Shown one piece after another: positions 51,807 through 60,657 of a stretch of 64,000 nt of DNA (within the stretch, counting starts at the first letter, position 1; every line of letters starts with the position of its first letter). The position numbers and the translations under genes are program-made. The notes under the pieces were generated by a model. That model saw only the letters and a program-made list of their open reading frames with translations, ran no database searches and was not told the DNA's origin. This stretch comes from Zoogloea sp. (GTDB lineage Bacteria; Pseudomonadota; Gammaproteobacteria; Burkholderiales; Rhodocyclaceae). Where the stretch lies: NCBI RefSeq assembly GCF_023150065.1, contig NZ_JAKLLN010000005.1, forward strand, positions 186,001 to 250,000, in the 5' to 3' direction.

Positions 51807-52026
51807 ACTGGCGCGCGGCCGTGAACGGCTGCGCGCGCTGATCGAGTTCGCGCTGGGCGAAGGCTGGCGCGTGGTGCGCACGTCCGGCGGGCACCTGAAA
51901 TTCACGAAACCAGGCTGCGCGTCGATCTACACCAGTTCGACTGCGAGCGACCACCGTGCCGACCGCAATGCCCGCGCGCAACTTCGCCGCGCCGACCGGC
52001 AGGCGCAGGAGAACGGCCGTGGCTGA
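51790..52026 (+). CDS. HicA-like small protein, Shi equivalent
   Basis: A 78-residue protein between parA and parB. Its ATG overlaps parA by 17 bases and it overlaps parB by 8, so all three are coupled; GGAGG lies 7 bases upstream. The core GWRVVRTSGGHLKF (His35) followed by a loop (YTSSTASDHRADRNARAQLRRA) resembles the HicA double-stranded-RNA-binding toxin fold, including the catalytic His. No HicB antitoxin is present. The position matches Shi of ICEclc, a growth inhibitor of donor cells (recalled). Confidence 0.72.
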   Translation: MASAHELARGRERLRALIEFALGEGWRVVRTSGGHLKFTKPGCASIYTSSTASDHRADRNARAQLRRADRQAQENGRG

Positions 52027-53677
52027 GCTGACGCCGCAGGACATGGCTGCCAAGCTGCTGGCCACCGGCTTCGAGCGCAGCGGCCCTTCGGCCGCGACCT
52101 TGAGCGACCCCATCGCCGACACGCCGATGGTGGTGACGCTGGACCAGTTGCGGCCCTACGACCACGACCCGCGCGTGACGCGCAACCCGGCCTATGCGGA
52201 GATCAAGGCGTCCATCCGCGAACGCGGGCTGGACGCGCCCCCCGCGATCACGCGCAGGCCGGGCGAGGCGCACTACATCATTCGCAACGGCGGCAACACG
52301 CGGCTGGCGATCCTGCGCGAGTTGTGGAGCGAGACCAAGGAGGAACGCTTCTTCCGCATTGCGTGCCTGTTCCGCCCGTGGCCGGCGCGCGGCGAAATCG
52401 TGGCGCTGACCGGGCATCTGGCCGAGAACGAGCTGCGCGGCGGGCTGACCTTCATCGAGCGGGCCTTGGGCATCGAGAAGGCGCGCGAGTTCTACGAGCA
52501 GGAAAGCGGCCAGGCGCTGTCGCAGAGCGAACTCGCGCGGCGGCTGACTGCCGACGGCTATCCGGTGCCGCAGTCACACATCAGCCGCATGAACGATGCG
52601 GTGCGCTATCTGCTGCCGGCGATCCCGACGCTGTTGTACGGCGGTTTGGGCCGGCATCAGGTGGACCGGCTCGCGGTGCTGCGCAAGGCGTGCGAGCGCA
52701 CCTGGGAGCGGCGTGCACTGGGCCGCACCGTGACCGTGGACTTCGCCACCTTGTTTCAGGACGTGCTGACGCAGTTCGACACACAGCCGGACGACTTCTC
52801 GCCGCAGCGGGTGCAGGACGAGCTGGTCGGTCAGATGGCCGAGCTGCTGGAGGCGGACTACGACACGCTGGCGCTGGAGATCAACGACAGCGAAAGCCGC
52901 CAGCGTGCGCTGACCAGCGAACCGGCAGCGCCGATGCCCCCGGCAGCGCCTGTCTTGCCTGCTGCACCGCCCTCGCCGGTCTCCGCGCCTCGGCAGCCAC
53001 CCGCCTCGTCTGTGCCGCGCGACACCACGCCGGTCGTGCCTCCAGCGCCAGCAGCAACACCGCCTGCACAGCTTAAAGCGCCGGAGGAGCAGCACGGTCA
53101 ACGCGACGAGCGCCTGCAAGGGCACATCGTGACACCGGCACCGACCACCGAGCGCCTGCTGTCCATCCAACGGATGGTCGCGGACCAGCTCGGCGACAAG
53201 CTGCCCGACTTCGAGGCCGACGCGCTGCGTGCGATCCCCGTGCAGGCTGGCGGGCTCTATCCCATCTCGGACGTCTGGTACATCGAGCCGGGGCTGGACG
53301 CGCCGGATCGCCTGCGCGTGCACATCGCGCAGTTCGCGCGCGAGATCGCCGGGGACGCGGCGGTGGCCGACCACATCGAGGCCATCGACGGCGGCATCGG
53401 CTTCGTCTGCGTGGCGCCGGCCGTGGGCCAGGCGAAAGCGCTGCCGGCGTTCGCGCGGGCGGTGCTCACCCTGCTGCATGCGCTGAGTGCGGCGCCGCCC
53501 GCCGCGAACGGCTTGGACCGCGCGCGGCTGGCCGACGAGCTGGCGGCGCTGTTCCATGGCCACGGCGGCTCTGCCACACGCCTGAGCGATGCTGCGCTGG
53601 TGAAGCTGTTCCGTCTGCTGCGCCTGGCGCGCCGGCTGCAGGACCTGCAGGCCGGCGAAGCGGGCCAGGCATCCTGA
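52019..53677 (+). CDS. ParB family protein of PFGI-1-type ICE, BisD equivalent by position
   Basis: A 552-residue protein. The N-terminal ParB/sulfiredoxin-like domain has VVTLDQLRPYDHDPRVTRNPAYAEIKASIRERGLDAPPAI and HYIIRNGGNTRLAIL, then an HTH region (SQSELARRLTADGYPVPQSHISRMNDAV). A Pro/Ala-rich linker (about residues 305-375) leads to a C-terminal domain. It fits the ICE ParB family TIGR03764 (recalled). GTG 52019 is chosen because AGGAG is 7 bases before it and it overlaps the Shi-like gene. It may bind the element's palindromes as a partition or transcription factor. Confidence 0.86.
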   Translation: MAELTPQDMAAKLLATGFERSGPSAATLSDPIADTPMVVTLDQLRPYDHDPRVTRNPAYAEIKASIRERGLDAPPAITRRPGEAHYIIRNGGNTRLAILRELWSETKEERFFRIACLFRPWPARGEIVALTGHLAENELRGGLTFIERALGIEKAREFYEQESGQALSQSELARRLTADGYPVPQSHISRMNDAVRYLLPAIPTLLYGGLGRHQVDRLAVLRKACERTWERRALGRTVTVDFATLFQDVLTQFDTQPDDFSPQRVQDELVGQMAELLEADYDTLALEINDSESRQRALTSEPAAPMPPAAPVLPAAPPSPVSAPRQPPASSVPRDTTPVVPPAPAATPPAQLKAPEEQHGQRDERLQGHIVTPAPTTERLLSIQRMVADQLGDKLPDFEADALRAIPVQAGGLYPISDVWYIEPGLDAPDRLRVHIAQFAREIAGDAAVADHIEAIDGGIGFVCVAPAVGQAKALPAFARAVLTLLHALSAAPPAANGLDRARLADELAALFHGHGGSATRLSDAALVKLFRLLRLARRLQDLQAGEAGQAS

Positions 53678-53696: not shown

Positions 53697-54257
53697 ATGT
53701 CGGCACCGCACCCGCTCAACCAGGCCGTGATCGCCCAGGCCCTGCATGACCTGCGCAACGGCCAGTTGCGCCGCTGCAAGGCCATGGGCTTCGGCGAGGA
53801 GGAGCTGGATGCGCTGAAGCACCCCGAACTCGTGAGCATGCTGGTGAATGCCACGGTGTCGTGGTGTTCGGTGTCGGTGAACCGGGAGGTATTGAAGCGG
53901 CTCCTGAGCCAGGTGCACGACGTGGAGCGGGAGATCGCCACGGTGGACCGCATGCTGCGCCTGGGGGCGAGCACGGAGATGGTCAGCAAGTTCTACGGCC
54001 TCACGCATCAGGAAGTGGCGCTGCGCCGTGACATCCTCGGGCTGCCCAAGCGCAAGGGCCGGCATCCGGTGCTCGATGAGGCGCAGGACGTGGCCTTGTG
54101 GGAGCGCTGGAAGGCCGGCGTCACCGAGCGCCATATCGCCCTGACCGACGACATGGCGATGCTGGCGCTGACCATGGATCTGGCCGAGGCCATGACCCTG
54201 CCCATGTCGGTGATCTGGTCGGCGATACGGAACTGGGTCGACCAGGGGCTGGTGTAG
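53697..54257 (+). CDS. DUF2857 protein, BisC-like by position
   Basis: A 186-residue helical protein (AQALHDLRNGQLRRCKAMGFGEEELDALKHPELVSMLVNATVSWCSVSVNREVL). It carries an HTH-like part (LRLGASTEMVSKFYGLTHQEVALRRDILGLP) and FlhC-like size. AGGAGG lies upstream. In ICEclc the corresponding gene after the ParB-like gene is BisC, part of the FlhDC-like master activator of transfer (recalled). Four bases separate it from the replication gene. Confidence 0.78.
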   Translation: MSAPHPLNQAVIAQALHDLRNGQLRRCKAMGFGEEELDALKHPELVSMLVNATVSWCSVSVNREVLKRLLSQVHDVEREIATVDRMLRLGASTEMVSKFYGLTHQEVALRRDILGLPKRKGRHPVLDEAQDVALWERWKAGVTERHIALTDDMAMLALTMDLAEAMTLPMSVIWSAIRNWVDQGLV

Positions 54258-54260
54258 GCC

Positions 54261-55454
54261 ATGACCACGGGTGGCGCACCACGGCGCGAAGGCCCGGTTG
54301 CGCTGTCGGCGTTGTTCGACGAGGCGCTGCGGCACCTTGAGCCAAAGGAACCGGCGCAGGGCGCGGCGCCGAGCCAGGACGGCTTTCTCTACAGCGGCAA
54401 CCGGCACGAGAGCGTCCCGCGCGCGCTGTTCCTCGACCGACGCCTGACGCCGCTGGAGCGCAATGCCTGGCAGGTGTTCCGCCTGCAGCTCAACGACGAC
54501 GGCGTGACCGCCTTTCCTACCTACGACCAGCTCCGCCCCTATCTGGCGTCCATGCCCTGTGCGTCGCAAGCCTCGCACGAGACCGTGGCGCGCGCCTTGA
54601 CGCTGCTGCGGCTGACGCGCTGGCTCAGCCTGGTGCGGCGGCGGCGCGATCCCAGGACCGGCCGTATCCAAGGCAACCTCTACGTGCTGCACGACGAACC
54701 GCTGTCGCCCTTCGAGGCGATGCAGCTCGACCCGGACTACCTGGGCTTGGTGAGTCAGGCGCTCACGCACGCGGCGAAGGCGGTGCAGGTCGTGGGCATG
54801 AACACGCTGCGGGAGATCGCCGAAGACCCGCTGCTCAGCGGGCGCACGCTGCCGACCCGTCTGCAAGTGCTGGCGCAACGCATGGCGCGGCATGGCTGGA
54901 CGACGCCGGGTTATCCACAGGAGGGTGCGGACCACGAATCCGAAGAAGGCCAGGAAGCCCTTCTTCGGAATGCTGCGCGCCTGTCTTCGGAATCCGAAGC
55001 AGGGCCGAAACCCGCGCCGGACGGCTCTCTTCGGATTCCGAAGGAGGACCGTACAGTACGTAAGGATCGTATAAATGAAGTACGTACAGTACCGCGCGCG
55101 AGGGCCTTGCAGAACCTGCGGCTGCCCGAGCGTTTCCTGCGCTTGAAGGACGAGCAGCAGGCCGGCGCGCTGATGGCGCTGCAGCAGGTGGACGAGGCGC
55201 AGAGGCAGGCCGTTCTCGACGAGTGGGCGGCACGCTGCCACAACAGCGCGGTACGCAACCCGGCCGGCTACCTGTTTGGCATCATCCAGAAGGCGATTCG
55301 CGGGGAGTTCAAGGCCTGGGCCGGAGAAAGTGCATCGGCACCGCCAGCGCCCCCGTCACCTGCGCCCTCGTCACCGCCGGCATCCCGTGCGGCTGACCCC
55401 GAGGTCGCACGAGCCTACCTGGCTCAGCTCCGAGAAGCCTTGCGTGATCGCTGA
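54261..55454 (+). CDS. STY4528-family island replication protein
   Basis: A 397-residue protein of the STY4528 family annotated as pathogenicity-island replication proteins. The N-terminal winged-helix-like domain (about 50-200) contains RALFLDRRLTPLERNAWQVFRLQLNDDGVTAFPTYDQLRPYLASMP and VARALTLLRLTRWLSLVRRRRD. A polar, low-complexity linker (about 217-277) precedes a C-terminal domain (AGYLFGIIQKAIRGEF). The DNA of the linker holds a DnaA box and palindromes (see separate entry). It belongs to the alpA-led operon. Confidence 0.85.
   Translation: MTTGGAPRREGPVALSALFDEALRHLEPKEPAQGAAPSQDGFLYSGNRHESVPRALFLDRRLTPLERNAWQVFRLQLNDDGVTAFPTYDQLRPYLASMPCASQASHETVARALTLLRLTRWLSLVRRRRDPRTGRIQGNLYVLHDEPLSPFEAMQLDPDYLGLVSQALTHAAKAVQVVGMNTLREIAEDPLLSGRTLPTRLQVLAQRMARHGWTTPGYPQEGADHESEEGQEALLRNAARLSSESEAGPKPAPDGSLRIPKEDRTVRKDRINEVRTVPRARALQNLRLPERFLRLKDEQQAGALMALQQVDEAQRQAVLDEWAARCHNSAVRNPAGYLFGIIQKAIRGEFKAWAGESASAPPAPPSPAPSSPPASRAADPEVARAYLAQLREALRDR
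54911..55092. other. origin-like cluster inside the STY4528 gene
   Basis: A perfect DnaA box TTATCCACA (54911-54919) is followed by six TTCGGA/TCCGAA half-sites. One pair is an 11-bp-arm inverted repeat (54939-54949 / 54959-54969) and two are perfect palindromes around CTTCGGA (54985-54999, 55029-55043). Then an AT-rich segment is bounded by two exact GTACAGTAC copies 33 bp apart (55051, 55084). The layout resembles a plasmid-type replication origin. Confidence 0.55.
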
Positions 55455-55460
55455 TGTTGA

Positions 55461-55477
55461 CTATCCCCAGGGGATAG
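55461..55477. promoter_or_regulatory. ICE palindrome copy 1
   Basis: CTATCCCCAGGGGATAG, 8-bp arms with one central base, seven bases after the STY4528 stop and 108 bases before the LOTUS gene. The one-base centre cannot form an RNA hairpin loop, so a protein operator is more likely than a terminator. Copies 2 and 3 occur in the next two gaps. Confidence 0.7.
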
Positions 55478-55524
55478 CTGGAACAGACATCTTTCCGCCG
55501 CGCTCGATTGTCGCCCGCCGAACG

Positions 55525-55545
55525 ACAGGCGAAACTGTCGCCTGT
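55525..55545 (+). repeat. inverted repeat upstream of the LOTUS gene
   Basis: ACAGGCG (55525-55531) and CGCCTGT (55539-55545) with a 7-nt loop; lies between the palindrome and the start codon. May be an mRNA leader hairpin. Confidence 0.45.
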
Positions 55546-55584
55546 GAATCAGACGAGGACAGCCACGCACGAGCCCGGCCGACG

Positions 55585-56445
55585 ATGGACATGACGACTT
55601 CCCCCGCCACAAACGCACTGCAACCACTACAGCAAGACGTTCAGCGCTTGCTGGGCAGATGCCTGTTGCGCCTTCAACAATACGAGCGCCTCATGAAAGC
55701 CATCGTGGCCCACCACGAGATTTCAGGCCCGGCGCATTCGCTGGAGGCCATTCGCGCAGCGCGGATTGAAGATGCCGCGACCAAGACCCTGGGCACGTTG
55801 GTCGGACAACTGTTTGGTTCGTATGTCGTCACCGATGGAAATGGCGGCGAGGAACGCGACGACGCTCTTCCCGGCGACGTGATTTCCTTTCGCACGCGCG
55901 TGCAACTGAGCCTGTCTGCGCAGGACTACGCCAACACCCAGGCCGACCTCAAAGACCTGGTATCGCTGCGCAACACCCTGGTGCACCACTTCATCGATCA
56001 GCACGATCTATGGACCGTGGACGGGTGCCGCGTTGCACAGGACGAACTCGGTTCCGCCTACACGCGCATCGATCAACACTTCGAGCAGCTGCGCGGCTGG
56101 GCCGAGCACATGGATCAGGCGCGGCGCCTGGCAGCGGAGTTCGTCCAGTCGGATGTGTTCCACGACCTGGTGGTCAATGGCATCGCGCCGGACGGCACGG
56201 TGGACTGGCCGGCCGCCGGCATCGTCCGCGCGCTGCGCGAGGCCGCCGCGCAGTTGGCCGTCGAGGGCTGGACACCCATTGCCGCCGCTGGCCGCTGGAT
56301 CGCGGACCGGCATCCCGAGCAGCTTCCAGCCAAGTACGGCTGCAGCAGTTGGCGGCAGGTGGTGCACGAGTGCCGCCTGTTCGAGCTTCGCTACCGTGAG
56401 GTGGAGGGGCAACGGGCCGCCTGGTACAGACCTCGCGAGGCATAG
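55585..56445 (+). CDS. ICE protein with C-terminal LOTUS (OST-HTH) domain
   Basis: A 286-residue protein. The N-terminal half is helical (LQQDVQRLLGRCLLRLQQYERLMKAIVAHHEI; LVSLRNTLVHHFIDQHDLW). The end, about residues 200-285, matches the LOTUS/OST-HTH pattern: GWTPIAAAGRWIADRHPEQLPAKYGCSSWRQVVHECRLFELRYREVEG, then an Arg/Trp terminus. LOTUS domains bind RNA, including G-rich structures. Its own promoter region has palindrome copy 1. Start is ATG 55585 or 55591. Function in the ICE unknown. Confidence 0.7.
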   Translation: MDMTTSPATNALQPLQQDVQRLLGRCLLRLQQYERLMKAIVAHHEISGPAHSLEAIRAARIEDAATKTLGTLVGQLFGSYVVTDGNGGEERDDALPGDVISFRTRVQLSLSAQDYANTQADLKDLVSLRNTLVHHFIDQHDLWTVDGCRVAQDELGSAYTRIDQHFEQLRGWAEHMDQARRLAAEFVQSDVFHDLVVNGIAPDGTVDWPAAGIVRALREAAAQLAVEGWTPIAAAGRWIADRHPEQLPAKYGCSSWRQVVHECRLFELRYREVEGQRAAWYRPREA

Positions 56446-56495
56446 CCCCGCAACGCGGTCTCACCTCCGCGCGAGCCGCGAACGACTCCGCCGAG

Positions 56496-56512
56496 CTATC
56501 TCCAGGGGATAG
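56496..56512. promoter_or_regulatory. ICE palindrome copy 2
   Basis: CTATCTCCAGGGGATAG, one mismatch to copy 1, 122 bases before the TIGR03761 gene. Similarity to copy 1 continues for about 22 bases to the right (GG-ACA-ACA-C-TTCCG), so the conserved element is longer than the palindrome. Confidence 0.68.
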
Positions 56513-56537
56513 CCGGCACACACAGCCTTCCGTGCGG

Positions 56538-56570
56538 AACAAACCGGGCGCGCATGGGCTGCGGTTTGTT
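56538..56570. repeat. inverted repeat in the promoter gap of the TIGR03761 gene
   Basis: AACAAACCG (56538-56546) and CGGTTTGTT (56562-56570) are perfect reverse complements. The flanking CAGCCTTCCG occurs twice directly (56523-56532 and 56577-56586). Likely part of the regulated promoter. Confidence 0.5.
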
Positions 56571-56633
56571 GACTGACAGCCTTCCGGCCGATGCCGATGC
56601 TGGCGACTCGCCAATTCACCGCGAGTCGCTCCC

Positions 56634-57422
56634 ATGGCCAACGAACGCACAGAACCCCTGCAACTGAATCTCGGATCGCTGCGCAGCGCGATGTCTCTGA
56701 CGCTGCACACGCACCACGCTTCGCGCATCTGGCACGGCCGCGCGCCGACCGAGGGGCGCCCCGGCATCATCGGTCTCAACGGCTTCATCGGCGCCATGAA
56801 CAAGATGAAGCGCGGCGCCGAGCAGGACGACCCGTACTCGGACTGGTGGATGTTGCGGATCGAGGACAAGCTCGCCGACACCAAGACCCGTCTGCAGACC
56901 CTGCGCGAACAGGTGGATCAGGCCTTGGCCGACGTGCCACCGGCGCTGTCGCTGGGCGAGAACATGAACGTGCAGCCGGTGAAGCTGCCGCTGTTCGTCA
57001 ATGCCCAGCTCGGTTTCATGGCGGTGTATCTGCTGGCCGACTACGACGACTTGGCACGCAAACTCATCCTGGCGCACCACACGGCGCTGATTGACCGCAG
57101 CACCTTGGAGCGCTGGCTCAATGATGGCGCGCACGCGCTGCGCAGCCTGTTCTCGCTGGCCCAGCAGTACCGCTACTCGGGCACGACGCGCGACGACTTC
57201 GCGGCGAAGAACGCCGCGGCGCGGGCGGCGCTGGAGAAGTTCGGCGAGTTGCCGCAGGACGTGCTGGAAGGCACGCGCCGCTCGCGTTTCGCGCCACCGA
57301 TCGCGCGGCGGACGACCAAGCCCGGCACGCCGCCTGCTGCGCCCGCCATCGAGCCCGATGCGACGGCTCACACGGATGGCGCAGCCGATGGTGCTGCGGG
57401 TGATGAGGATGCTGGCGCATGA
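56634..57422 (+). CDS. ICE protein, TIGR03761/PFL_4669 family
   Basis: A 262-residue protein conserved in PFGI-1-class elements. Features are LNLGSLRSAMSLTLHTHHASRIWHGRAP and GIIGLNGFIGAMNKMKRGAEQDDPYSDWWMLRIEDKL near the N-terminus and an Ala/Pro/Asp-rich tail. Function not established. Its stop overlaps the next ATG (ATGA), forming an operon with the DUF3158 protein and ssb, probably under palindrome copy 2. Confidence 0.82.
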   Translation: MANERTEPLQLNLGSLRSAMSLTLHTHHASRIWHGRAPTEGRPGIIGLNGFIGAMNKMKRGAEQDDPYSDWWMLRIEDKLADTKTRLQTLREQVDQALADVPPALSLGENMNVQPVKLPLFVNAQLGFMAVYLLADYDDLARKLILAHHTALIDRSTLERWLNDGAHALRSLFSLAQQYRYSGTTRDDFAAKNAAARAALEKFGELPQDVLEGTRRSRFAPPIARRTTKPGTPPAAPAIEPDATAHTDGAADGAAGDEDAGA

Positions 57423-57967
57423 CAGCATCGCCCCCTATCAGCCACTCCACGCGCTTCGTGGCGCTGGAACAGGCGGACTTCCAGCGGCTGGAACACGCAG
57501 GCTACCTAAAAGGCCTTTTACAGCCCTTTAAGGGTAAGGGGAGTCTGGAGACCTGGGCCAGCCTGTGCGCAGCGCTGCGCGACGACGTGATTGGCCTGGC
57601 GCAGCGGCGCGTGCTGCCCCAGGCGCGCACCTACCCATTCAGTCTGCTCGACGTGCAACTGGCCCAGCAGGCCACTGGTGCAGGGACGACCTTCCTGCGC
57701 TGGCGCAACCTCGACCGTTCCTCCATGGGCGTGGCGTTGTGGGAGGCCCTGCTGGCCAACCCCGCGACGCCGGCCTCGCTGATCGACGAACTGTACGCGA
57801 TGGAACTGCAGCGCATCGTGCTGAACATGCAGATCAGCCTGACCCACAGCATCGCTCGCCAAGCGCTGGAATGCGCCAACAAGGCCGCGCAGGCCGAAGC
57901 GGCTTACCTGCGGCGCGTCCACGGGCATGCCGCGTCCGTTCCACCCACCACCAAGGAGTCACCATGA
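57419..57967 (+). CDS. DUF3158 protein, InrR-like by position and size
   Basis: A 182-residue protein of the DUF3158 type (FVALEQADFQRLEHAGYLKGLLQPFKGKGSLETWASLCAALRDDVIGLAQRRVLP). It directly precedes ssb, exactly where ICEclc has InrR, the integrase regulator of about 20 kDa (recalled). ATGA overlaps exist on both sides. DNA-binding role is inferred, not seen. Confidence 0.75.
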   Translation: MTASPPISHSTRFVALEQADFQRLEHAGYLKGLLQPFKGKGSLETWASLCAALRDDVIGLAQRRVLPQARTYPFSLLDVQLAQQATGAGTTFLRWRNLDRSSMGVALWEALLANPATPASLIDELYAMELQRIVLNMQISLTHSIARQALECANKAAQAEAAYLRRVHGHAASVPPTTKESP

Positions 57968-58347
57968 GCACGCACTTCGTCGGCGAGGGCAACATCGGTT
58001 CTTCGCCGGACTACCGCGAATTTCCGAACGGCAACGACGAGCCGCGCCGGCTGCTTCGCCTGAACGTCTACTTCGACAACCCGATCCCGAAGAAGGACGG
58101 CGAGTACGAAGATCGCGGCGGATTCTGGGCGCCCGTGGAGCTGTGGCACCGCGACGCCGAGCACTGGAAGACGCTGTACCAGAAAGGCATGCGGGTGCTG
58201 GTCGAGGGCCGCACCGTGCGCGACGAATGGGAGGACGCCGACGAGAACGAGCGCGTGACGTTCAAGGTCGAGGCGCGGCGCGTGGGCATCCTGCCGTACC
58301 GCATCGAGTCGGTGGCGCTCAGCGCCAAGCCGGCCGGCGGACAGTAA
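57964..58347 (+). CDS. ssb: ICE single-stranded DNA-binding protein
   Basis: A 127-residue OB-fold protein (FVGEGNIGSSPDYREF; RLNVYFDNPI; GGFWAPVELWHRDAEHWKTLYQKGMRVLVEGRTV; FKVEARRVGILPYRI). It lacks the long C-terminal acidic DDDIPF tail of host SSB. Probably protects the transferred strand. It overlaps the DUF3158 gene by four bases. Confidence 0.85.
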   Translation: MSTHFVGEGNIGSSPDYREFPNGNDEPRRLLRLNVYFDNPIPKKDGEYEDRGGFWAPVELWHRDAEHWKTLYQKGMRVLVEGRTVRDEWEDADENERVTFKVEARRVGILPYRIESVALSAKPAGGQ

Positions 58348-58414
58348 TTCGCCCATCGCCGTTCCCCCGAGGGCGGCTGTAGCAACCGTCATACGCCCGC
58401 GATGCACCAGCGAG

Positions 58415-58431
58415 CTATCCCCAGGGGATAG
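58415..58431. promoter_or_regulatory. ICE palindrome copy 3
   Basis: CTATCCCCAGGGGATAG, identical to copy 1 and extended by AG/CT on both sides (58413-58433; 10-bp arms). It lies 68 bases after ssb and 211 bases before topB. Confidence 0.7.
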
Positions 58432-58641
58432 CTCCAAGGTCATCCAAAGAGTTCCAGCCGCCCTCCCGTAACGACGCTCTTGCTGTGCCAGCTCCTACGG
58501 TCTATGCGCACCGCTGCGGCAACGGACCGCCTGCCGATCACAAAGCGGCGTCTGCATCAATCGGCTTCCTTGCTGCCGGCATCTCCTGGCCCTGCCAAGC
58601 TGGCGCTCATCCGACGAACCGCACATCTCCAAGGAGGCTTC

Positions 58642-60657
58642 ATGCGCGTGTTCCTGTGCGAGAAGCCGTCCCAGGGCAAGGACATCGCCCGTGTGCTGGG
58701 CGCCGGCCAACGCGGCAACGGCTGCTACAGCGGCGCGGGTGTCGTCGTGACCTGGTGCATCGGTCATCTGGTCGAGGCGGTTCCGCCCGAAGGCTACGGC
58801 GAGCAGTACAAGCGCTGGGCCATCGAACAACTGCCCATTCTTCCCGAGCGCTGGCGTGTCGAGCCCAAGGCGGCGACCGCGGCGCAGTTCAAGGTCGTGC
58901 AGCAGCTCGTCGCCAAGGCGGGCGAGTTGGTGATTGCGACCGACGCCGACCGCGAGGGCGAGATGATCGCCCGCGAGATCATCGACCTATGCGGCTACCG
59001 CGGGCCGATTCAGCGCCTGTGGCTGTCGGCGCTCAATGATGCGTCGATCCGCAAAGCGCTGGGTGCGCTCAAGCCGTCCGCCGAGACGCTGCCGCTGTAT
59101 TTCTCGGCACTCGCCCGATCGCGCGCCGACTGGCTGATCGGGATGAACCTGAGTCGCTTGTTCACACTGCTGGGGCGCCAAGCCGGCTATGCCGGCGTGC
59201 TGTCTGTGGGGCGCGTGCAGACGCCGACGCTGAAGTTGGTGGTGGATCGTGATCGCGAGATCGCACGTTTCGTCTCGGTGCCGTTCTGGGCGATCGAGGT
59301 TGCGCTGTCCCATGCCGGCCAATCCTTCGTCGCAAGTTGGACGCCGCCGCAAGGCAGCACCGACGATGCGGGCCGTTGCTTGCAACAGCCGGTCGCCCAG
59401 CAGGCCGCGGATCGCATTCGCGCGGCACGCGATGCGCAGGTCGTGTCGGTGGACACCGAGCGCGTGCGCGAGGCACCGCCGCTGCCGTTCGACCTGGGCA
59501 CGCTGCAGGAGGTGTGCTCCAAGCAGTTGGGCCTCGACGTGCAGGAGACGCTGGACATTGCCCAGGCGCTGTACGAGACGTACAAGGCGACAACGTATCC
59601 GCGCTCGGATTCGGGCTACCTGCCCGAGAGCATGCTGGCCGAGGTGCCGACCGTACTCAACAGTCTGGTCAAGACCGACCCCAGCCTGCGGACGCTGATC
59701 GAGCGCCTGAATCGCCAACAGCGTTCGCGTGCGTGGAACGACGGCAAGGTGTCGGCTCACCACGGCATCATCCCGACGCTGGAGCCCGCCAACCTGTCGG
59801 CCATGAACGAGAAGGAGCTGGCCGTCTATCGGCTGATCCGCGCCCATTACCTCGCGCAGTTCCTCCCACACCATGAGTTCGACCGGACGGTGGCGCAGTT
59901 CTCGTGCGGCAGTCAGTCGCTGGCGGCCGTGGGCAAGCAGATCGCCGTCAGCGGCTGGCGCGAGGTGCTGGCGACGCCGGGGCCAGACGATGCCGATGGA
60001 GAGGATGCGCAGCGCAGCCAGGTGCTGCCCGCCCTGCATGCGGGCCTGTCCTGCCCGGTCAGCAAGGTGGATCTCAAGGCGCTGAAGACGCTGCCGCCCA
60101 AGCCCTACACGCAGGGCGAGCTGATCAAGGCCATGAAGACCGTCGCCAAGTTCGTGACCGACCCGCGGCTGAAACAGAAGCTGCGAGATACCACCGGCAT
60201 CGGCACCGAGGCGACACGCGCCAACATCATCAACGGCCTGATCGGTCGCGGCTACCTGGTCAAGAAAGGCCGCGCCGTCCGCGCTTCCGACGCGGCATTC
60301 ACGCTCATCGACGCGGTGCCCTCGGCCATCGCCGACCCCGGCACCACGGCGGTGTGGGAGCAGGCGCTGGACATGATCGAGGCCGGCCAGATGGCGCTGG
60401 ACACCTTCATCGAGAAGCAGTCCGTGTGGGTCGGCCAGCTCGTGCAGCAGTACCGCGGCGCGACGCTCTCGCTCAAGCTGCCGCCGGCGCCGGCCTGCCC
60501 GCAGTGCGGCGCACCGATGCAGCAGCGCACGGGCAAGAGCGGCGCGTTCTGGTCCTGCTCGCGCTACCCGGACTGCAAGGGCACGTTGCCGATCGAGTCC
60601 CCGACGGGCCGGCGCAGCGCACCGCGCAAGCGGCGCGCTGCCTCCAGGGCGTCCTGA
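58642..60657 (+). CDS. topB: type IA DNA topoisomerase (topoisomerase III) of the ICE
   Basis: A 671-residue enzyme that decatenates DNA. TOPRIM motifs (FLCEKPSQGKDIARVLG; ATDADREGEMIAREI), the active-site Tyr319 in TTYPRSDSGYLP, the GVLSVGRVQTPTLKLVVDRD block and a C-terminal zinc finger (CPQCGAPMQQ, CSRYPDCKG) are present. AAGGAGG precedes ATG 58642. ICEs of this class usually carry a topB homologue near ssb. The 294-base gap before it holds palindrome copy 3. Confidence 0.94.
   Translation: MRVFLCEKPSQGKDIARVLGAGQRGNGCYSGAGVVVTWCIGHLVEAVPPEGYGEQYKRWAIEQLPILPERWRVEPKAATAAQFKVVQQLVAKAGELVIATDADREGEMIAREIIDLCGYRGPIQRLWLSALNDASIRKALGALKPSAETLPLYFSALARSRADWLIGMNLSRLFTLLGRQAGYAGVLSVGRVQTPTLKLVVDRDREIARFVSVPFWAIEVALSHAGQSFVASWTPPQGSTDDAGRCLQQPVAQQAADRIRAARDAQVVSVDTERVREAPPLPFDLGTLQEVCSKQLGLDVQETLDIAQALYETYKATTYPRSDSGYLPESMLAEVPTVLNSLVKTDPSLRTLIERLNRQQRSRAWNDGKVSAHHGIIPTLEPANLSAMNEKELAVYRLIRAHYLAQFLPHHEFDRTVAQFSCGSQSLAAVGKQIAVSGWREVLATPGPDDADGEDAQRSQVLPALHAGLSCPVSKVDLKALKTLPPKPYTQGELIKAMKTVAKFVTDPRLKQKLRDTTGIGTEATRANIINGLIGRGYLVKKGRAVRASDAAFTLIDAVPSAIADPGTTAVWEQALDMIEAGQMALDTFIEKQSVWVGQLVQQYRGATLSLKLPPAPACPQCGAPMQQRTGKSGAFWSCSRYPDCKGTLPIESPTGRRSAPRKRRAASRAS

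Follow-up and report, generated by a model that had tools for sequence, protein, structure and literature searches.

A conserved, lineage-specific palindrome in the replication and processing block of a Zoogloea integrative and conjugative element, a candidate site for its ParB-family protein

The ParB protein of IncC plasmids binds, in vitro, 22-bp inverted repeats that are scattered over intergenic regions; some of these sites precede AcaCD sites by 10-25 bp, and they are borrowed by SGI1 for its own partition (PMC10954446). The RP4/RK2 backbone is likewise reported to carry many palindromic operators, with 12 KorB sites of 13 bp (PMC10954446). In the integrative and conjugative element (ICE) ICEclc, the ParB-family protein is named BisD and the DUF2857 protein BisC, and BisDC alone is reported to activate PinR (PMC7423338). 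The subject of this analysis is a 17-bp palindrome that recurs in the replication and processing block of an ICE from Zoogloea sp., located on a stretch of 64,000 nucleotides (contig NZ_JAKLLN010000005.1, positions 186,001 to 250,000) that is referred to as the window. A literature search, limited to sources other than supplementary figures and subscription papers, found no description of this palindrome in the PAGI-2/ICEclc branch.

The set of sites is real, highly conserved, lineage-specific and of a known general kind. Its place is conserved, its word is nearly invariant within the family, other lineages have different words that mostly match among the copies of one element, and in the genomes searched it is confined to the block. 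Judged from sequence, there is about an even chance that each element's palindrome is recognised specifically by a DNA-binding protein of the ICE itself, in the first place ParB (TIGR03764, BisD), possibly together with DUF2857 (BisC).

The palindrome, CTATCCCC-A-GGGGATAG, occurs at window positions 55461, 56496 (with 1 mismatch) and 58415, exactly as the original prediction had claimed from the letters of the window. A scan of the 64-kb window allowing up to 3 mismatches returns only these three places (6 strand matches), which agrees with its remark that no further copy was seen in the ICE part; 100 shuffles of the window gave a mean of 0.10 matches and a largest count of 2. Frequent occurrence in the host chromosome, which would speak against an ICE-specific site, was not found, as the whole 5.25-Mb genome adds one match at up to 2 mismatches, itself with 2 mismatches and on a different contig. 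The sites end 107 bases before the start codon of the LOTUS gene, 121 before that of inrR (TIGR03761) and 210 before that of topB; the original prediction placed them correctly and counted one base more in each case (108, 122 and 211). The similarity that it noted between copies 1 and 2 is present and somewhat less than the claimed 45 bp, with about 31 of 37 bases identical from the palindrome onward. A search for sigma-70 promoters and terminators gave none. The surrounding block has the gene order parA (50886), parB, DUF2857, STY4528, LOTUS, inrR, DUF3158, ssb and topB (Table 1).

Conservation was assessed by scanning public genome contigs for the exact 17-mer, which returned at least 117 stretches; all per-locus counts given here are among the matches listed. 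Genes or gene fragments of the ICE block are found in 114 of the 117, comprising 112 loci with main block genes and two with DUF3158 fragments only (L042 and L083), while three stretches (L085, L093 and L113) have no block genes. The 112 loci contain 246 sites with at most 1 mismatch, which represent 16 distinct words and include 227 perfect sites, and their centre base is A in 152, T in 88, G in 4 and C in 2. Sorted by neighbouring genes, 105 sites lie between STY4528 and inrR, 82 between ssb and topB, 15 between LOTUS and inrR and 11 between STY4528 and LOTUS; the remainder consists of 30 sites with one neighbour lost at the end of the locus and 3 whose closest preceding gene is DUF2857. The palindrome is therefore present in the homologous ICE gaps, where its absence would have contradicted the original prediction.

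Spacing to the downstream gene is also maintained. The copy nearest inrR is 112-129 bases upstream in all 73 measured loci, the topB copy is 191-242 bases upstream at 77 of 84 measured sites (the others at 111-276, and at 2133 in L104), and the distance is 104-107 bases at all 13 sites with LOTUS as the next gene. The gap between STY4528 and inrR holds one copy in 15 of 82 loci, two in 60 and three in 7. Block-bearing ICEs are found across many proteobacterial genera, and locus L040 retains CTATCCCC although its block proteins drop to 51-73% identity with the window (InrR 73%, STY4528 54%, ParB 51%). Ten genomes reached via these loci were scanned at up to 2 mismatches; all of their sites sit in clusters of two or three within 4 kb, and several of these clusters were retrieved with their sequence. 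In Cupriavidus necator A5-1 (L226:3192), one copy lies inside a perfect 37-bp palindrome around CTATCCCC.

More distant elements were collected by searching for TIGR03761 in sets of 369, 85, 5 and 250 genomes and in plasmids (68 records). Loci were retrieved from 40 genomes, divergent ones first, and 6 plasmids, and an inrR start was obtained in 44 of the 46; the 44 include a few near twins, such as L157/L182, L161/L164 and L162/L163. A perfect odd-centred palindrome of at least 17 bp is present within 450 bp upstream of inrR in 22 of the 44 divergent loci, against an expectation of 0.52, whereas the even-centred counterpart occurs in 1 (expected 0.49); the interior of inrR, over 700 bp, yields 4 odd and 3 even palindromes. 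The window's word recurs in one of the 22 (L179), and the other 21 carry different words, among them GTGGCCACA, GTGGTTACA, GTGATTCCA and GTGTTGGCA. Looser palindromes are seen in L159, L160, L183 and L190. The mean difference between 8-nt arms is 1.6 within an element and 4.3 between elements, in a set that still includes some unrelated palindromes. A plasmid of S. stutzeri (L195) reproduces the layout of the window with a different word, GTTGCGG-C-CCGCAAC, in two copies before inrR and one just after ssb.

Two groups of closer relatives have variant words in which both arms are altered together, namely CTATACCC-S-GGGTATAG in L241/L242 and YTATACCA-G-TGGTATAG in L227/L228. Their identities to the window are 85-90% for InrR, 64-69% for STY4528 and 60-66% for ParB, and the word of L241 was found in none of the 369 genomes of the class. 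Overall similarity of InrR and STY4528 does not track the word, because these variants differ at 85-90% InrR and 64-69% STY4528 identity while L040, at 73% and 54%, keeps CTATCCCC. The presence or absence of genes, compared with that of the palindrome, picks out no single protein. Locus L168 (genome G257, which has two further TIGR03761 copies) has an odd-centred palindrome before inrR, and the 15.6 kb retrieved contain no recognisable ParB or DUF2857.

The same data bear on a very improbable reading, in which the palindrome is a DNA or RNA hairpin signal (a cruciform, a priming site or a leader structure) and not a double-strand protein site. The original prediction held that the single-base centre rules out an RNA hairpin, and this was mistaken, since the computed fold of the 17-mer is a 7-bp stem capped by a CAG triloop (-8.1 kcal/mol as RNA, -4.3 as DNA). 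The arms of the pKLC102 palindromes vary yet remain self-complementary, and two-sided changes are also seen in L227, L228, L241, L242 and L045. However, a hairpin is not favoured as the main function because the sequence is kept, not just the pairing: 163 regions upstream of inrR or topB yield just one other perfect odd palindrome of at least 17 bp, that of L045, where the inrR-proximal copy (126 bases before inrR) reads CGGTCCCC-A-GGGGACCG and the topB copy reads CTATCCCC. A further 19 of the 246 listed near-exact sites are one-sided mismatches, in a set that could not show two-sided changes because it was limited to one mismatch. An Rfam search gave no match.

The protein most likely to read the palindrome was sought by partial covariation between arm bases and 12-residue protein windows with mean protein distance controlled (1282 windows, 548 of them in ParB). 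For the inner six arm positions, ParB holds 19 of the top 20 windows. Its maximum was reached in 0 of 300 label shuffles, compared with 14 for DUF2857, 5 for STY4528 (maximum 0.307) and 277 for InrR (maximum 0.103), and the order ParB, STY4528, DUF2857, InrR was kept in all four runs on the inner positions. The best ParB windows, 219-226 and 244-255, are located beyond the putative recognition helix, which itself ranks 69; in KorB, specificity is set by residues outside the helix-turn-helix. Later runs added L227, L228, L229, L237, L241, L190 and L194 and changed the hand-chosen arms of L159, L181 and L198, and when the earlier arms were restored and the variants removed, ParB still came first on the inner six positions and DUF2857 on all nine.

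Individual columns were filtered for at least 97% conservation in CTATCCCC elements and alteration in both variant groups. This filter retains R153H, S199P, V233S/A and D406E in ParB, M150 in DUF2857, Q294 in STY4528 and A113S in InrR. ParB column 199 sits in QSHISRM, the putative recognition helix; all 56 ParB rows from CTATCCCC elements have S there, and all 4 variants have P. Across 27 elements, the pairs of residue 199 with arm base 6 are S-C (6), S-G (5), T-C (5), P-A (3), A-T (2), G-T (2) and four singles. By corrected mutual information this pair ranks 199 of 6048, in an analysis of column pairs that is too noisy with its 18 effective rows.

Several results weigh against ParB as the reader of an element-specific palindrome. 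Half of the divergent loci (22 of 44) fail the strict palindrome criterion, ten of them with a ParB; L181 bears two palindrome types, and no palindrome was found in the L240 block (InrR 85% and ParB 58% identical to the window). S199 is also kept in L195 and L196, which have other words, and S199P may be a single event because both variant groups form one weakly supported ParB clade (83/84). When all nine arm positions are used, DUF2857 comes first with 11 of the top 20 windows (ParB 5, InrR 4), and none of the four protein maxima, not even that of InrR, was matched in 300 shuffles. An equal number of top-20 windows in ParB arose in 11 of 300 shuffles, and in 10 of 300 when the set was thinned; label shuffles ignore relatedness. 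Earlier, smaller covariation runs, one of which included truncated ParB rows, singled out no protein, and in an earlier run the recognition helix alone gave a partial r of -0.01 (p 0.50). The ICE ParB matches TIGR03764 (E 2e-120), and no Pfam ParB or KorB domain was detected in it; its similarity to KorB (E 0.08) and to IncC ParB (E 0.32) is not significant. In ICEclc, BisDC is also reported to activate Pint (PMC7423338), yet in the four genomes checked no copy of the palindrome turned up close to transfer genes. Taken together, the covariation favours BisD or BisDC as the reader and is not proof. Among the binders that the original prediction had listed, ParB stands out, or DUF2857 with all arm positions; on these sequence comparisons ParB is probably the reader, supported rather than proven.

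InrR, of the AcaB family, is a quite unlikely reader, although an operator through which it acts on its own promoter and on topB would agree with several observations. PF08900 names its family transcriptional regulator AcaB, InrR covaries with all nine arm positions as described, and apart from PbisR every late ICEclc promoter tested is reported to depend on InrR (PMC9286271). Upstream of acr1-acaDC in IncC lies an odd-centred dyad of 27 bp in which one pair is mismatched. This dyad, TAACTTTGTTCCG-T-CGGTACAAAGTTA, was observed in the IncC plasmid pAR060302 (L223:12420-12446) and is a candidate AcaB site; we take AcaB to bind this region, for which the papers state only activation of the operon. 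Against an InrR operator are the inner arm positions, where InrR shows the weakest covariation of the four proteins, and the loose relation between protein and word, with close InrR sequences next to other palindromes and the divergent InrR of L040 next to the same one. The InrR structure model is too poor for a fold match (predicted local distance difference test score 62.6; E 0.41 for the best PDB match). It is improbable that the palindrome is an operator of some further factor, such as AlpA, the BisR-like protein or a host regulator. The covariation set consisted of ParB, DUF2857, STY4528 and InrR. In its own genome the site does not occur outside the ICE block apart from the one 2-mismatch match, and this confinement, together with a word that differs between ICE lineages, argues against a host protein.

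A 27-bp transfer-competence motif of ICEclc is reported at eight promoters, including those of traI and intB13, and also upstream of inrR (PMC9286271). The palindrome shares with it the occurrence upstream of inrR and differs in that the 27-bp motif stands at traI and the late promoters, a comparison made by promoter set and not by letters. Whole-genome scans of G000, G001, G002 and G003 at up to 2 mismatches found no site near the genes for TraI (TIGR03760) or the type IV secretion system (T4SS) ATPase (PF11130), which are about 30 kb or more from any site or on a different contig. Scans of retrieved stretches take in both of these genes in G001, G003 and contig C196 of G000, a contig not shown to be part of the window's ICE; the G002 stretch is without transfer genes, and the G002 negative comes from its whole-genome scan alone. 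With no site near the transfer genes of the four genomes, the idea that the palindrome marks late ICE promoters in general was rejected, and for the same reason it is not the 27-bp motif. The inrR gap holds both the palindrome and, between it and inrR, a nearly invariant box, CGGTTTGTTGACTGACnGCCTTCCG, identified in an alignment of 39 representative upstream regions. The box scores above 9 bits at one place in each of four stretches holding inrR, with no other high-scoring copy there, and it may be the 27-bp ICEclc motif in this promoter. Both the box and a composite palindrome-plus-CCTTCC motif were rejected as regulon motifs, as neither has a strong copy elsewhere in the scanned stretches.

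The gap between STY4528 and inrR also invites comparison with a replication origin. The putative origin (oriV) of PFGI-1 has TTCGGAATCCGAA palindromes in its A+T-richer first half and, in its second, four 46-bp repeats that each contain an imperfect 21-bp inverted repeat (PMC2647930). It shares with the window the STY4528-to-TIGR03761 gap (PFL_4669 in PFGI-1), palindromic repeats and the companion TTCGGAATCCGAA palindromes, as does the putative oriV of pKLC102. A corresponding role here, with the palindrome forming part of the ICE oriV as iteron-like sites of the STY4528-family initiator, is unlikely. In its favour, the gap coincides with the G+C-rich part of the PFGI-1 putative oriV, the corresponding gap of pKLC102 contains 14 palindromes of 19 bp spaced 57 or 114 bp, and STY4528 is second-best on inner-position covariation. 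However, the pKLC102 sites form a fixed-register direct-repeat array of other sequence, while in the window's family the gap never holds more than three copies (82 loci, at least one in each) and no array. Unlike PFGI-1 and pKLC102, where the origin function is itself putative, this family has further copies before topB and LOTUS. The rise in ICEclc copy number is reported to need TraI and oriT1, with the authors leaving room for other mechanisms (PMC6561031), which weakens an oriV role without excluding it.

STY4528, moreover, has its own class of palindromes within its gene. A scan for TTCGGAATCCGAA allowing up to 3 mismatches of 15 finds at least one in 73 of 73 STY4528 open reading frames of at least 1 kb, and at least two in 71 of them. 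These intragenic palindromes are the likely initiator sites, and the A+T-richer stretch that follows them in the window is a possible unwinding element. The arrangement at 54936-55092, with TTCGGAATCCGAA palindromes and then an A+T-richer stretch inside an initiator gene, resembles a lambda-O-type origin.

The coordinates of all features are collected in Table 1. PF08900 is one of the profiles behind the inrR assignment. A GenBank record of 1497 bp, DQ115836, bears the name of Cyanobacteria phage AS-1 but shares 94% identity with the ICE over window positions 57046-58540, from within inrR into the topB gap, and is probably mislabelled.

Table 1. Features of the ICE block in the window (positions count from the first base of the 64,000-nucleotide stretch)
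Feature	Position	Strand	Basis or remark
ParB-family gene, TIGR03764 (bisD in ICEclc); favoured palindrome reader	51956..53677	+	profile match E 2e-120; covariation
DUF2857 gene (bisC in ICEclc); possible partner or reader	53697..54257	+	PF11198, E 6e-64; covariation
STY4528-family replication protein gene	54261..55454	+	E 1e-122
Second palindrome class, CTTCGGAATCCGAAG and CTTCGGATTCCGAAG, 44 bases apart, inside STY4528 gene; likely initiator sites	54985..55043	.	sequence
A+T-richer stretch past STY4528 palindromes; possible unwinding element	55051..55092	.	sequence
Palindrome copy 1, CTATCCCCAGGGGATAG	55461..55477	.	precedes LOTUS-domain gene
OST-HTH/LOTUS-domain gene, only in part of the family	55585..56445	+	PF12872
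Palindrome copy 2, 1 mismatch in left arm	56496..56512	.	precedes inrR (TIGR03761)
Nearly invariant box CTGCGGTTTGTTGACTGACAGCCTTCCG	56559..56586	+	between copy 2 and inrR, 46 bases past copy 2
TIGR03761/AcaB-family gene (inrR in ICEclc)	56634..57422	+	profile matches
DUF3158 gene	57419..57967	+	profile match
ssb	57964..58347	+	profile match
Palindrome copy 3, with flanks 23-bp perfect	58415..58431	.	precedes topB
topB, DNA topoisomerase III	58642..60657	+	profile matches

Returning to ParB as the favoured reader, the ICE has the hallmarks of parS- and KorB-type systems, namely several near-identical intergenic palindromes and genes for both ParA and a ParB-family protein. The IncC and SGI1 parS sites share these properties, some of them standing near activator sites, but the IncC sites are 22 bp long, even-centred and scattered over the backbone, and the palindrome of the ICE is a putative ParB site. 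The KorB operators of RP4/RK2 differ from it in sequence and length. They have a single-base centre. IncC ParB carries KorB and ParB domains, and the IncC model is carried over to the ICE by function and architecture and not by proven homology, because the ICE ParB has no significant similarity to IncC ParB or KorB. The copies located 107-210 bases upstream of inrR-DUF3158-ssb, topB and LOTUS probably act on those promoters, and they may in addition serve for partition, in the manner of parS, while the ICE is excised and replicates. The original prediction of a protein-binding set over the replication and processing block is supported, and its two readings, operator and parS-like array, may be the same thing.

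A more specific and rather doubtful proposal is that BisD is a KorB-like protein that loads at the palindromes, and that the sites serve both as a centromere and as a promoter switch, so that expression of the replication block would be linked to partition of the excised ICE. The word, changing along with ParB in each lineage, would then determine which ICEs in one cell cross-regulate or exclude each other. BisD is the ParB-family half of the BisDC activator, which decides which cells become transfer-competent. If each lineage's palindrome is read by its own ParB, the sites would provide a handle on ICE partition, on the coexistence of ICEs and on the route by which the bistable switch acts on the replication genes. 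For the second half of the putative PFGI-1/pKLC102 oriV, this would likewise offer a testable alternative role.

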